Origin: a virus
DNA: 25,478 nucleotides
Strand: one strand, 5' to 3'
Virus record (IMG/VR): IMGVR_UViG_3300010430_000421
Span: 1 to 25,478 of that record
In this document: piece by piece, positions 16,330 through 21,379 of the stretch
How positions within the stretch are numbered: the first letter of the stretch is position 1
Layout: the number at the start of each line of letters is the position of its first letter
Notes under the pieces: generated by a model
Databases searched by the model: none
What the model was told of the DNA's origin: nothing
What the model saw: the letters and a program-made list of their open reading frames with translations, nothing else
Translations under genes and position numbers: made by a program

Positions 16330-16986
16330 ATGCCAGCAGCAGCAGCAAGAGTCGGACGGTTAAAGAAAGGCGCCCAACGCGGCGGCGGCGGCCTGCGAAT
16401 GGGCGCACAATCGCAAATGGCCGGCCCGCTTAAAATGGGTGCTCGGAGTAGAGGACCGATTAAACAAGGCGCGGTAAGATCGGCTATGGAAACTGCCAGG
16501 GGCGGACCAGGGGATCGAGGCCCAGGCGGCATACCAGGCCAGGAATTATCCGGCTTACACGGCGGACCCAGGATGCCCCAGGCAAACGCCGGCCAGCCCG
16601 AAATGGCAACCGGCGCCCAGGGCCCCGCGGTTATGCCGGCCGAACCGGTGGCCGCACCGATCCCGACCGGCGGATCCGGAAAAAGCGCCGACGTCGGCAG
16701 CGGCGGAGCTGGCGTTATGGATATGGGCCCGACTCCGAAAGGCGTACAGGATGCAGGCGCCGGCGGTGGCGGTCGATTATTGAGGCCAGGAACCGGCCTT
16801 ATTAGTCCGGCCGCGCCGATCCGGCCCCTGGATGGTGGCGAGAGTGTACCAGCTGCAGTACCGCCACCAGGAGCACAGGCGGAAGTCGCGCCTATGGCAA
16901 AAATGATGGCCTCGCGTCAACCTATGTCTGGATTTCAACCGCGGCGGAAACCCAAGTCACGGCCAGGCTATTTTACAGGAGCATAA
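16330..16986 (+). CDS. Gly/Pro/Ala-rich disordered basic protein (218 aa)
   Basis: Low-complexity throughout: glycine, proline, alanine and methionine dominate. Basic patches lie at the N-terminus (RVGRLKKGAQRGGGGLRMGA) and C-terminus (QPRRKPKSRPGYFTG). The segment MGAQ/MGAR recurs near residues 24-40. No folded domain is apparent. It begins four bases after the portal stop and opens a run of small basic genes, so a virion-internal or assembly role is likely. No family recognised. Confidence 0.6.
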   Translation: MPAAAARVGRLKKGAQRGGGGLRMGAQSQMAGPLKMGARSRGPIKQGAVRSAMETARGGPGDRGPGGIPGQELSGLHGGPRMPQANAGQPEMATGAQGPAVMPAEPVAAPIPTGGSGKSADVGSGGAGVMDMGPTPKGVQDAGAGGGGRLLRPGTGLISPAAPIRPLDGGESVPAAVPPPGAQAEVAPMAKMMASRQPMSGFQPRRKPKSRPGYFTGA

Positions 16987-18488: not shown

Positions 18489-19448
18489 ATGAACGCAAAA
18501 GCCGAGGAACAGGCAAAGGCAGTAAAAAGCGACGGCCGGACCGATAAGGAAAAGCTGGCCGATATTGGTTTATCTCCGGAAGAAACCGCGGCCTTAGAGG
18601 CCGACGATACCGACACAGGCGCCGAGGGCGCCGATAAGGACGCAGCCGGCAAGGATGCCGACAAGTCCGGCGATAAGGGGGCCACCGATGCCAAAGATGA
18701 GAACGAGGCCGATAAGGCCGCGGCGGCGGAGGCCAGCGGCGGCGAGGGTGACGAGAAAGCCGGCGATACTCAACCGTCGGAAAAAGTACCCGACCATTTC
18801 ATCCCAATGGCGGAAACATTAACCGATGAAGATCTAACGCAGATTTCAACAGATCTTGAAACCCTTAAAACTCAATTTGATGATGGTGATATTGATTACG
18901 AGAAATATACCGACGGCCGTTTAGAGCTCGAAAAGCTGATATGGCACCATGAGCAAGCGGAAATGACAAATATTAACGCCGTCGAACAACGCTGGCAGTG
19001 GGAACGCGATTGGTATCTGCAATCAAATGCGGAGCTCAATAACTCCCAGGTGATATACGGTGCCTTTGCGGCCCAGGTAAACGCGCTTTTAGCCGACGAT
19101 GAATGGAATACCGCCCCAGGTTTTGACCTTTTGACCGAGGCGCACAGGCGCGTATCATCCGAGATCGATAGCCTGGCGGGCCCAGGATCCGGATCGACCG
19201 ACAACGGCCGACCAGCTGGCGGCGATAAATTGAGCGCCGACGAGAAAGCGGCCGATGCCCTTAAAAAGGCAAAGGCGGCAGAGTCCGGCAAGCGGCCACC
19301 GGAAACCCTGGCCGGCAAACCGTCGGCCGAGAAACATACCGATGAGAGCAAATTTGCCTATCTCGATAATTTAGAGGGCGAAAAGCTGCAGGCCGCGATC
19401 GATAAACTCAGCCCGACCGAGTTAAAAGAGTACGAGGACCACCACTAA
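18489..19448 (+). CDS. Probable capsid scaffolding protein
   Basis: The 319-residue protein is highly acidic and Ala/Asp/Glu/Lys-rich in residues 1-100 and again in the last 100, with a helical middle (EDLTQISTDLETLKTQF, EHRRVSSEIDSL-like). The composition and location just before the capsid genes are those of phage scaffold proteins. CCAGGAGG precedes the ATG. It would guide coat assembly and then leave or be cleaved. Identification rests on composition and synteny rather than a named domain. Confidence 0.65.
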   Translation: MNAKAEEQAKAVKSDGRTDKEKLADIGLSPEETAALEADDTDTGAEGADKDAAGKDADKSGDKGATDAKDENEADKAAAAEASGGEGDEKAGDTQPSEKVPDHFIPMAETLTDEDLTQISTDLETLKTQFDDGDIDYEKYTDGRLELEKLIWHHEQAEMTNINAVEQRWQWERDWYLQSNAELNNSQVIYGAFAAQVNALLADDEWNTAPGFDLLTEAHRRVSSEIDSLAGPGSGSTDNGRPAGGDKLSADEKAADALKKAKAAESGKRPPETLAGKPSAEKHTDESKFAYLDNLEGEKLQAAIDKLSPTELKEYEDHH

Positions 19449-19909
19449 TGGAAGTAGTTTATCCGGATAATTGGGATCCGAGCGCAAAAGTTGAAAAGGC
19501 CGAGATCGATAAAACGGTATTGATAGCGCCATTTGCCTATATCATGGCCGGCGCGAGCATAGGGCCCTGGTGCATCATAGGCGCCTATTCGATGATCGGT
19601 GAAACCTGTATCCTGGCCGAGAACGTGCAAGTAATGGCCCATGTAACCATGCAGGCGGCCGAGATCGAGCGCGACGTTTTTATCGGCCCAGGCGTCCGGA
19701 TCCTAAATGTCAAGCACCCGCAGGCCACCTTTGAGGATCCCAAAGAGGATCCAGTTTGCATTTGTGAGGGCGCGATTATCGGCGGCGGTGCAACCATCCT
19801 GCCAGGCGTTACCATAGGCCCGCGGGCCAAAGTGGGCGCCGGCGCGATCGTTACCAGGGATATGGCAGCCGGCGAGCAAGTGAAAGGCCAGGCGGCCACG
19901 GTCTTTTAA
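19448..19909 (+). CDS. Left-handed beta-helix (hexapeptide-repeat) acyltransferase
   Basis: Repeating I/V-G-x-x hexapeptides (GASIGPWCIIGAYSMIGETC; IIGGGATILPGVTIGPRAKV; GAGAIVTRDM) wind a left-handed beta-helix. The order NVQVMAHVTMQ, IERDVFIGPGV, VKHPQATF resembles WbpD/WlbB-type sugar N-acetyltransferases, which acetylate UDP-amino sugars and work as trimers. At 153 residues it is a little shorter than those enzymes. Its ATG overlaps the scaffold stop (TAATG), placing it in the capsid operon. It may modify a sugar nucleotide or, less likely, serve structurally. Confidence 0.8.
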   Translation: MEVVYPDNWDPSAKVEKAEIDKTVLIAPFAYIMAGASIGPWCIIGAYSMIGETCILAENVQVMAHVTMQAAEIERDVFIGPGVRILNVKHPQATFEDPKEDPVCICEGAIIGGGATILPGVTIGPRAKVGAGAIVTRDMAAGEQVKGQAATVF

Positions 19910-19927: not shown

Positions 19928-20095
19928 GTGGCACTCTTAACCGACGTATCGAAAACCGAAATAGTGCACCTTGACCTGGCGGACGATACGAAAATCACGC
20001 TGCGCGTTATCAAAAAGAGCGGCAAAAAGGTTAGGATCTGCATTGACGCGCCTAAAACAGTGAGCATATCCAAAAAGGATTTGCCAAGAAAATAA
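19928..20095 (+). CDS. CsrA-family RNA-binding protein, divergent (55 aa)
   Basis: The GTG-started 55-residue product aligns along its length with CsrA. The best stretch, VRICIDAPKTVSISKKDL (residues 35-52), corresponds to E. coli VRIGVNAPKEVSVHREEI; ITLRVIKKSGKK matches the preceding strand. CsrA is a dimer that binds GGA motifs in mRNA leaders. Key RNA contacts differ: E. coli R6/R7 align with Asp6/Val7, and R44 aligns with Lys49. It ends 147 bases before the major capsid gene, whose leader carries GGA triplets. Family is likely; RNA binding is unproven. Confidence 0.75.
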   Translation: MALLTDVSKTEIVHLDLADDTKITLRVIKKSGKKVRICIDAPKTVSISKKDLPRK

Positions 20096-20242
20096 GGCCC
20101 CAGGTTCAAATATAGCCACCTGTTAAAACAGAGCAGGGTAAGAGGCCGGCGGACGGTGCCAACGATAGGCGCCGGCAACGTGCAGGAGTGAATTAAAACC
20201 TGTAACTTACTCTAATCTTATTCTGAACAGGAGGCTATTAAA
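20096..20242 (+). promoter_or_regulatory. Structured untranslated leader of the major capsid gene
   Basis: This 147-base gap is the longest in the head module. It contains a CTGTT-AA-AACAG hairpin (20120-20131), a GCCGGCG/CGCCGGC stem (20145-20151 with 20170-20176), and GGA triplets at 20151, 20185 and 20230. The last is within the ribosome site CAGGAGG (20228-20234). CCTGT (20199-20203) and CCTGTT (20119-20124) can each pair with the ACAGG of that site. The elements could support translational control; that is inferred. Confidence 0.5.
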
Positions 20243-21379
20243 ATGGCACAAACCATCATAGGGGTTAATGACCCAAAAGCAGTAAAGAAATATTCGGCGT
20301 TTCTGGCCGTCGATGTTGCGCGTACTTCATATTGGAGTCGCAAGTTTTTTGGCCAGGGCGTAGAATCCGGTATGCCGATCCACCAGCTTAACGAGCTGGA
20401 AAACGATGCCGGCGAGTACATTTCCTTTGATCTTTCCATGCAGCTGAAAATGCAACCGGTCGAGGGTGACGATGTACTCGAAAACAAAGAGGAAGAACTG
20501 AAGTTTTACACCGACGGCGTGTATATCGATCAAATGCGCGGCGGTGTAAACTCAGGCGGCCGCATGACGCGGAAACGGACCATCCACAATTTACGCAAAG
20601 TGGCGCGTAAGCGTCAATCCGAGTGGTGGGCCAGGGTATTTGATGAGCTGCATTTCATGTACCTTTCCGGAGCTCGCGGCGTAAATGCCGAATTTGTTTT
20701 TCCGGCAACCTATTCCGGATTTGCGGGCAACGCCTTTACCGCACCGGACGCGGAGCATATCCAGTACGCGAACAACAAAACAAAGGCAACCATTGTTGTT
20801 GGTGACGTTATGAACCTTACCGAGATCGATAAGGCGAAAGCGGTTGCCACCATGATGGGCGGCGGATCCGGCGGCGGGGATGCCGGCAGCGACGGCAATA
20901 CCCAAACGCCTAAAATCATGCCGATTATGATTAACGGCGAGAATCACTTTGTTACGGTGATGAATTCCTGGCAGGTTTATGATGTACGGACCTCGACCAG
21001 TACCGGCCAGTGGCTCGATATTCAGAAAGCCGCAGCGGCAGCCGAGGGCAGGAACAACCCCATTTTCAAGGGCGCCCTGGGTATGTATAACAATGTGGTA
21101 TTGCATGAGCATGAAAATCCGATCCGGTTTAATGATTACGGATCCGGCGGCGATGTTGAGGCCTGCAGGGCCCTTTTCCTCGGTGAGCAAGCGGCCGTTT
21201 GTGCGTTTGGATCCCCAGGAACCGGATTGCGTTTCGGGTGGTTTGAAGAAACCCGCGACAATGGCAATCAGCTGGTTATCTCGACCCATTCCATTTTCGG
21301 GATCAAGAAAACCACGTTTAATGGTAAGGACTATGGCATCATGGCCATTGATACAGCTGCCAAGAACCCGACCACCTAA
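20243..21379 (+). CDS. Major capsid protein, N4-gp56 family
   Basis: A 378-residue HK97-fold coat protein of the N4-gp56 type. Recognisable segments are WSRKFFGQG, IHQLNELENDAGEYISFDLS, LKFYTDGVYIDQMRGGVNSG and NPIFKGALGMYNNVVLHEHE, which forms the conserved late strand. It sits after scaffold and before head-completion genes. CAGGAGG lies eight bases before the ATG, after the 147-base structured leader. It forms the capsid shell. A 14-residue segment reappears in the chimeric ORF at 11049-11411. Confidence 0.9.
   Translation: MAQTIIGVNDPKAVKKYSAFLAVDVARTSYWSRKFFGQGVESGMPIHQLNELENDAGEYISFDLSMQLKMQPVEGDDVLENKEEELKFYTDGVYIDQMRGGVNSGGRMTRKRTIHNLRKVARKRQSEWWARVFDELHFMYLSGARGVNAEFVFPATYSGFAGNAFTAPDAEHIQYANNKTKATIVVGDVMNLTEIDKAKAVATMMGGGSGGGDAGSDGNTQTPKIMPIMINGENHFVTVMNSWQVYDVRTSTSTGQWLDIQKAAAAAEGRNNPIFKGALGMYNNVVLHEHENPIRFNDYGSGGDVEACRALFLGEQAAVCAFGSPGTGLRFGWFEETRDNGNQLVISTHSIFGIKKTTFNGKDYGIMAIDTAAKNPTT

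Follow-up and report, generated by a model that had tools for sequence, protein, structure and literature searches.

A predicted two-state leader RNA of a phage major capsid gene as a candidate target of the CsrA-like protein encoded upstream

Background

The leader of the major capsid gene analysed here is probably a two-state switch that serves as the dedicated target of a CsrA-like protein made by the phage itself from the gene directly upstream; this protein would act by opening the ribosome site (SD) of the capsid gene. On this reading, drawn from sequence comparison and fold prediction, the phage would time capsid synthesis by means of its own CsrA. The role of phage csrA was described as untested until recently (PMC11879866), and phage CsrA genes have so far been read as morons reprogramming the host, whereas the comparative evidence reported here points to a phage-internal target. 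The predicted target site is precise and is present in the cultured phages JC1, DC1, BcepMigl, Skulduggery, Itty13, Parlo, Pavtok and LASTA. If the reading is correct, it would explain the occurrence of csrA-bearing phages in hosts lacking csrA, show how translation could set the time of capsid synthesis, and offer a set of natural CsrA-RNA pairs with coordinated changes at residue 44 and the loop base.

In the proposed mechanism, the unbound leader would hide the capsid SD, in most relatives within a hairpin preceding the ATG and, in the subgroup to which the window belongs, within a long-range helix formed with the bases that immediately follow the stop codon of the csrA-like gene. A dimer of the CsrA-like protein would recognise hairpin loops of the type A-N-G-A in the leader. 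In most relatives such a hairpin has an arm in common with the SD-hiding hairpin, so that its binding should release the SD and turn capsid synthesis on, in a manner akin to CsrA at ymdA. We infer both the binding of the protein to the leader and its activating, rather than repressing, effect. Predicted SD sequestration, the alternative folds, a covarying hairpin, linkage to csr and protein-RNA covariation are supported by comparison and controlled fold prediction.

Gene order and features of the window

The window, meaning the whole stretch of DNA analysed, is a 25,478-base virus record with a P22-type portal, terminase, a scaffold-like ORF, a hexapeptide-repeat gene, a CsrA-like gene and a capsid gene. 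As the sequence-only reading had noted, the leader directly follows the CsrA-like gene, with ORFs at 19928-20095 and from 20243. The features of this region are as follows.

18489-19448, + strand: scaffold-like ORF, 319 aa, between the portal region and the csrA-like gene (phrog_8246, E 1.2e-26, function unknown)
19928-20095, + strand: CsrA-like protein, 55 aa, GTG start (PF02599, PDB profile and Foldseek matches)
20096-20242, + strand: leader of the major capsid gene, predicted two-state RNA (folds and comparative support)
20243-21379, + strand: major capsid protein (Phage_capsid_3), the proposed regulated gene (PF13252, E 1.5e-56; phrog_334, E 1.9e-102)

The hexapeptide-repeat (acyltransferase-like) gene, at 19448-19909, separates the scaffold-like ORF from the csrA-like gene. 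The nearest cultured relatives by capsid, about 50% identical, are Itty13, the Lessieviruses (DC1, JC1), Pavtok, Skulduggery, LASTA and others. Against Rfam 15, neither the window nor the capsid leaders from 18 loci gave a match at or above the gathering threshold, and only tRNAs matched elsewhere. The leader was also searched for promoters; no promoter-like site was found inside it, and such sites in the region were at chance level.

The window CsrA-like protein scored 28.1 bits against PF02599, above the curated cut-off of 27, and its PDB profile matches were CsrA/RsmE. The proteins of several relatives also scored above the cut-off, while those of LASTA and Pavtok scored below it. The AF2 monomer of the window protein had a pLDDT of 88.9, and the top 14 Foldseek matches of this model were all CsrA/RsmE chains, with probabilities of 0.93-1.0 and E-values of only 0.06-0.3. 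Arginine 44 of CsrA reads the first G of GGA (PMC7366521). The window protein has K at residue 44 in place of this Arg, and across 120 phage proteins position 44 was K in 46, R in 26 and another residue in the remainder.

Alternative folds of the window leader

The structures described below are thermodynamic predictions. The elements of the leader are as follows.

20096-20147, + strand: local state of the 5' half folded alone, with P1 (20096-20099/20144-20147), P2 (20103-20106/20114-20117) and P3 (20119-20124/20132-20137)
20112-20124, + strand: anti-SD arm AUAGCC-a-CCUGUU, 5' arm of the long-range helix
20154-20174, + strand: P4 hairpin CGGUGCC-AACGAUA-GGCGCCG with A-N-G-A in the loop; compensatory change in L010
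20180-20190, + strand: GUGC-AGGA-GUG, conserved AGGA site (AGGA 20184-20187, GGA 20185), which aligns with the family hairpin
20199-20203, + strand: CCTGT, minor competitor, paired with 20181-20187 in the best fold; not conserved
20226-20238, + strand: SD arm AACAGG-a-GGCUAU, 3' arm of the long-range helix, holding AGGAGG at 20229-20234

A 12-bp long-range helix (20112-20124/20226-20238) is predicted to cover the capsid SD. The pairing of CCTGTT with the ribosome site, first suggested by the sequence-only reading, was thus borne out as far above chance and longer than claimed, with a helix energy of -24.5 kcal/mol against -11.4 ± 2.4 kcal/mol for shuffled 5' arms (p < 0.002). For the whole leader, the state with the SD hidden is the more stable one, by about 12 kcal/mol (-52.2 versus -40.6). 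When the 5' half is folded alone, as it would first be transcribed, P1 (GGCC/GGCC) forms around P2 and P3 and is followed by P4. P2 and P3 occupy the bases of the anti-SD arm, so the SD helix and the local state are mutually exclusive, and the decisive competition is that between the long-range SD helix and this set of local hairpins. The P2 and P3 loops are of the UUCAAnnAUAG type, a motif that recurs before the same capsid family.

T-loop-like UUCAAnnAUAG hairpins, single or in tandem and with varying stems, were found upstream of the capsid ATG in the window (20103-20137) and at L008, L011-L020, L047-L050 and L350-L389. An exact 15-mer scan for this hairpin returned 57 sites, 17 of them just upstream of the same capsid family; exact-pattern scans give many chance sites, and a site was counted only if it had a csr or capsid context. 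Phages with no csr beside the capsid gene also have such hairpins in their capsid leaders.

Conservation in the window subgroup

In all 14 relatives folded (L001, L003, L005-L010, L061, L011, L014, L016, L018 and L020), the best fold paired the region of the ribosome site with the upstream leader. The two helix arms change together, as GUACC/GGUAC in L011 and L014, GAUCC/GGAUC in L016, AGAGCC/GGCUUU in L010 and CCUGGUUCAAA/UUUGAAUUAGG in L008. The mean pairing energy was -21.5 kcal/mol for arms of the same leader versus -12.4 kcal/mol for arms combined across subgroups. One outer pair of the helix is broken in L006 and one in L007, and the helix of L014 was not significant by itself (p = 0.18).

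Relatives thus keep the hairpin site as well as the pairings, for which the sequence-only reading had advised comparison, and all positions given by that reading were correct (GGA at 20151, 20185 and 20230; CCTGTT at 20119-20124; AACAGG at 20226-20231; CCTGT at 20199-20203). The number of GGA triplets on which it drew is uninformative, as three in 147 nt is what chance would give (shuffle mean 2.8, P = 0.61). The GGA at 20185, kept in 9/9 relatives, is the sole conserved GGA site outside the SD, whereas that at 20151 is missing at the site in 3/9 (L003, L005 and L008). The GCCGGCG/CGCCGGC stem proposed beside the latter does form in the window's own minimum-energy fold, but the conserved stem of the window subgroup is GGYGCC/GGYRCC (20155-20160/20168-20173); GGA 20151 and the former stem were rejected because they are not conserved. 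CCTGT at 20199, offered as a second competitor, is not kept intact (for example in L005, L009 and L010) and was rejected as a main one. What survives of the suggested CsrA-controlled or switch-like leader is the pairings, the hairpin and the csr/capsid linkage, which on comparative grounds favour such control, and a putative A-N-G-A loop replaces the argument from GGA. In this candidate recognition loop the first G of GGA varies.

The classic tetraloop hairpin of the wider family is absent from the window subgroup, where P4 and the AGGA site at 20180-20190 are present instead. GCAGGA was found at this site in 10/10 window-group leaders, with a weak stem in the window subgroup, and the N of the P4 loop differs among relatives of the subgroup.

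An A-N-G-A hairpin across the wider family

A csrA-like ORF before the capsid gene recurred in many of the first 80 capsid loci fetched, and a short, strand-specific leader element, GCGC-ANGA-GUGC, was common to those loci. A blind 14-mer scan also landed between the csr-like and capsid genes. Loci L204-L211 were excluded from the analysis. The strict form of the hairpin (C-ANGA-G with at least 4 pairs) was present in 75/121 leaders with a csr-like ORF and in 3/17 without, among 138 non-redundant leaders. Two of these three csr-less leaders proved to be csr-positive, L269 by a csr profile, itself built from the loci analysed, and L021 by eye, its csr being a divergent ORF that ends 72 nt before the capsid ATG. 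No recognised ANGA hairpin was found in about a quarter of the csr-positive leaders.

Because the motif was defined after the first 80 loci had been viewed, those fetched later were counted separately. Among them, 60/67 csr-positive leaders carried the tetra- or pentaloop hairpin within 100 nt, against a background of 1.2% in random windows of the same loci. Sites selected by CANGAG occurred at 0.92 per leader versus 0.078 expected, and stems of at least 4 pairs accompanied 83% of these leader sites compared with 8% of control sites. Other loop tetramers of equal degeneracy were mostly near background, with GNAA (0.15) and ANCA (0.12) mildly raised and NGGA, which overlaps the A-N-G-A motif, at 0.37. 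In an alignment of 59 sites built without a stem criterion, the covariation score of the stem was 0.318; shuffles scored 0.135 ± 0.016, and slid registers no more than 0.133.

Elements were also seen in other positions. At L095 3308-3343, and also at L086, L093, L098 and L139, GGCGCATGAGTGCC stands in front of a different gene (103 aa, MALPQVHV...), and a csr-like ORF lies some hundreds of bases upstream. Long ANGA-loop hairpins lie downstream of the capsid gene at L024 (+1640), L052 (+1153) and L213 (+1134), relative to the capsid ATG; some are terminator-like, and one is followed by TTTT.

Sequestration of the ribosome site

The mean probability that the SD is unpaired was 0.19-0.25 in csr-positive capsid leaders (shuffles 0.40) and 0.459 in 150 other genes from the same loci (shuffles 0.448), a difference with p = 3.7e-14. 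SD-hiding capsid leaders also exist without csr. In the wider family, the predicted SD-hiding hairpin lies just before the ATG and its 5' arm begins with GAGUGC, a stretch made up of the 3' arm of the ANGA hairpin and the two loop bases before it. Of 75 leaders, 84% reuse four or more of the GAGUGC bases in the SD hairpin (mean z -2.6), as in L307 (GAGTGCTC..GGAGCACTC) and L264 (GAGTGCGTTCC..GGAGCGCATTC). With one arm common to both, only one of the two hairpins can form in most relatives, and the ANGA hairpin is therefore positioned as an anti-sequestor.

Linkage with csr and covariation of protein and RNA

In JC1, DC1, BcepMigl, Skulduggery, Itty13, Parlo, Pavtok and LASTA, a csrA-like gene precedes the capsid gene and the hairpin is present, often with a five-base loop (AGGAG, AGGAU, AAGAC or AUGAC; UGGAU in Skulduggery). 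Atu_ph08, PBC5 and POI1126 have the hairpin and no csr beside it; in each of them a csr-like protein is encoded at another position. In L287 (a 10-kb fragment) and L294 (a Methylovorus prophage) the hairpin is present, and the search for a csr-like gene came up empty.

Position 44 was basic in 38/43 proteins paired with an AGGA loop versus 20/53 otherwise (p = 3e-7), and in 11/12 versus 3/17 when one protein per 50%-identity cluster was taken (p = 1e-4); the leaders share descent, and p-values that assume independence, that is, all except the clustered ones, are inflated. The association with the loop base is of comparable strength at positions 4 and 36, so that shared ancestry contributes to the signal, and position 44 was singled out because of its published role. 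The K44 of the window protein is consistent with its AGGA site.

PTXU04, F116 and 8P were rejected as models, as their csrA-like genes are not adjacent to the capsid gene. Knockdown of the csrA homologue shrinks the plaques of PTXU04 (PMC11879866); this gene lies by the lysis genes and not by the capsid gene. Pseudomonas phage F116 (NC_006552) has two csr-like matches, at 33378-33500 (+) and 16469-16582 (-), the former not near the capsid gene and in a region of structural and hypothetical genes.

A possible second target

In 12/81 csr-positive loci, the gene preceding csrA has its start codon within the loop of a GCGC-AUGA-GUGC hairpin, compared with 0/489 other genes (p = 3e-11). Because this is the same kind of loop, the CsrA-like protein could, in this minority of relatives, repress the scaffold-like gene while activating the capsid gene. 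The ORF is taken as a putative scaffold gene from its position. In the window, the scaffold-like ORF has an ordinary start and no such loop.

Alternative explanations

A broader reading, which we hold only tentatively, is that regulator and target form a self-contained pair in the head module, in which a divergent CsrA reads A-N-G-A, opens the capsid SD and closes the scaffold start, thereby setting the order or ratio in which scaffold and capsid are made; this code would be separate from the GGA code of the host, and a widespread family of tailed phages would carry the pair. The opposite sign of control appears unlikely to us. The CsrA-like protein would then bind the ANGA hairpin near the SD, block ribosomes and delay capsid synthesis, and would also bind the scaffold-start loop where there is one, with the SD-hiding fold either adding to repression or being stabilised by binding. 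CsrA most often represses, competing with ribosomes (PMC7492729), and the end of the ANGA hairpin only about 20-40 nt before the ATG, as well as the scaffold start codon in a loop in 12 relatives, would suit a repressor. In most relatives, however, the ANGA and SD-hiding hairpins cannot coexist, so that binding of the former would be expected to open the latter. The window itself does not show which way the switch turns, and its sequence does not make clear how binding would tip P1-P3 against the SD helix; the direction of action is hence least certain in this subgroup.

We consider it improbable that the leader answers to some other ligand or signal (scaffold or capsid protein, an RNA, temperature or transcription kinetics) and that the neighbouring csrA-like gene acts on host mRNAs. 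The SD-hiding leaders and T-loop-like hairpins of phages without csr would fit such a view, as would the description of csrA as a moron gene by the authors of JC1, who found one csrA peptide in virions (PMC9144972). The associations between hairpin, csr and loop residue argue against it, and csrA is reportedly missing from Burkholderia cenocepacia, one of the hosts in which csr-bearing phages occur (PMC7366521). That the GGA triplets and pairings are functionless products of chance is very improbable and was already disfavoured; the number of GGA triplets is indeed at chance level, but covariation, position and specificity for the SD hold across many diverse phages.

Comparison with known systems

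In Lessievirus and related phages (JC1, DC1, BcepIL02, CSP3, LASTA and Itty13), a csrA-like gene lies directly or nearly directly before the capsid gene, as in the window, and the same leader hairpin is present in those examined. Their csrA has been published only as a moron or host-regulating gene, and no earlier description of the leader element was found in the literature searched, in which coverage of subscription papers was thin. Scaffolding autoregulation in P22 is a case of post-transcriptional control of a head-assembly gene, the effector being the scaffolding protein itself. The window resembles P22 in its P22-type portal and in the proposed control of a head gene, and differs in the proposed effector.

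The phage proteins are like the CsrA/RsmA family (PF02599) in domain and length, may be like it in predicted fold, and differ from it in having a hydrophobic residue for R6, D or E for T5, and a variable position 44. In E. coli, CsrA opens an SD-hiding leader hairpin of ymdA and activates translation, as seen by footprints and toeprints (PMC7492729), and RsmA of Pseudomonas activates phz2 by opening an SD-hiding hairpin (PMC3933668). As in these leaders, the SD of the phage leader would lie in a leader hairpin with candidate CsrA-family sites beside or within it; in the window, prediction and covariation place it in a stable leader structure. Compared with the GGA-in-loop sites of ymdA, AGGA at 20184-20187 is conserved in a weak stem, and the family loop is A-N-G-A, with its first G not fixed. 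The regulator of ymdA and phz2 is a chromosomal global protein using GGA, whereas the phage would employ a dedicated protein encoded beside its target, together with a covarying anti-sequestor hairpin carrying an A-N-G-A loop, through which translation would be activated.
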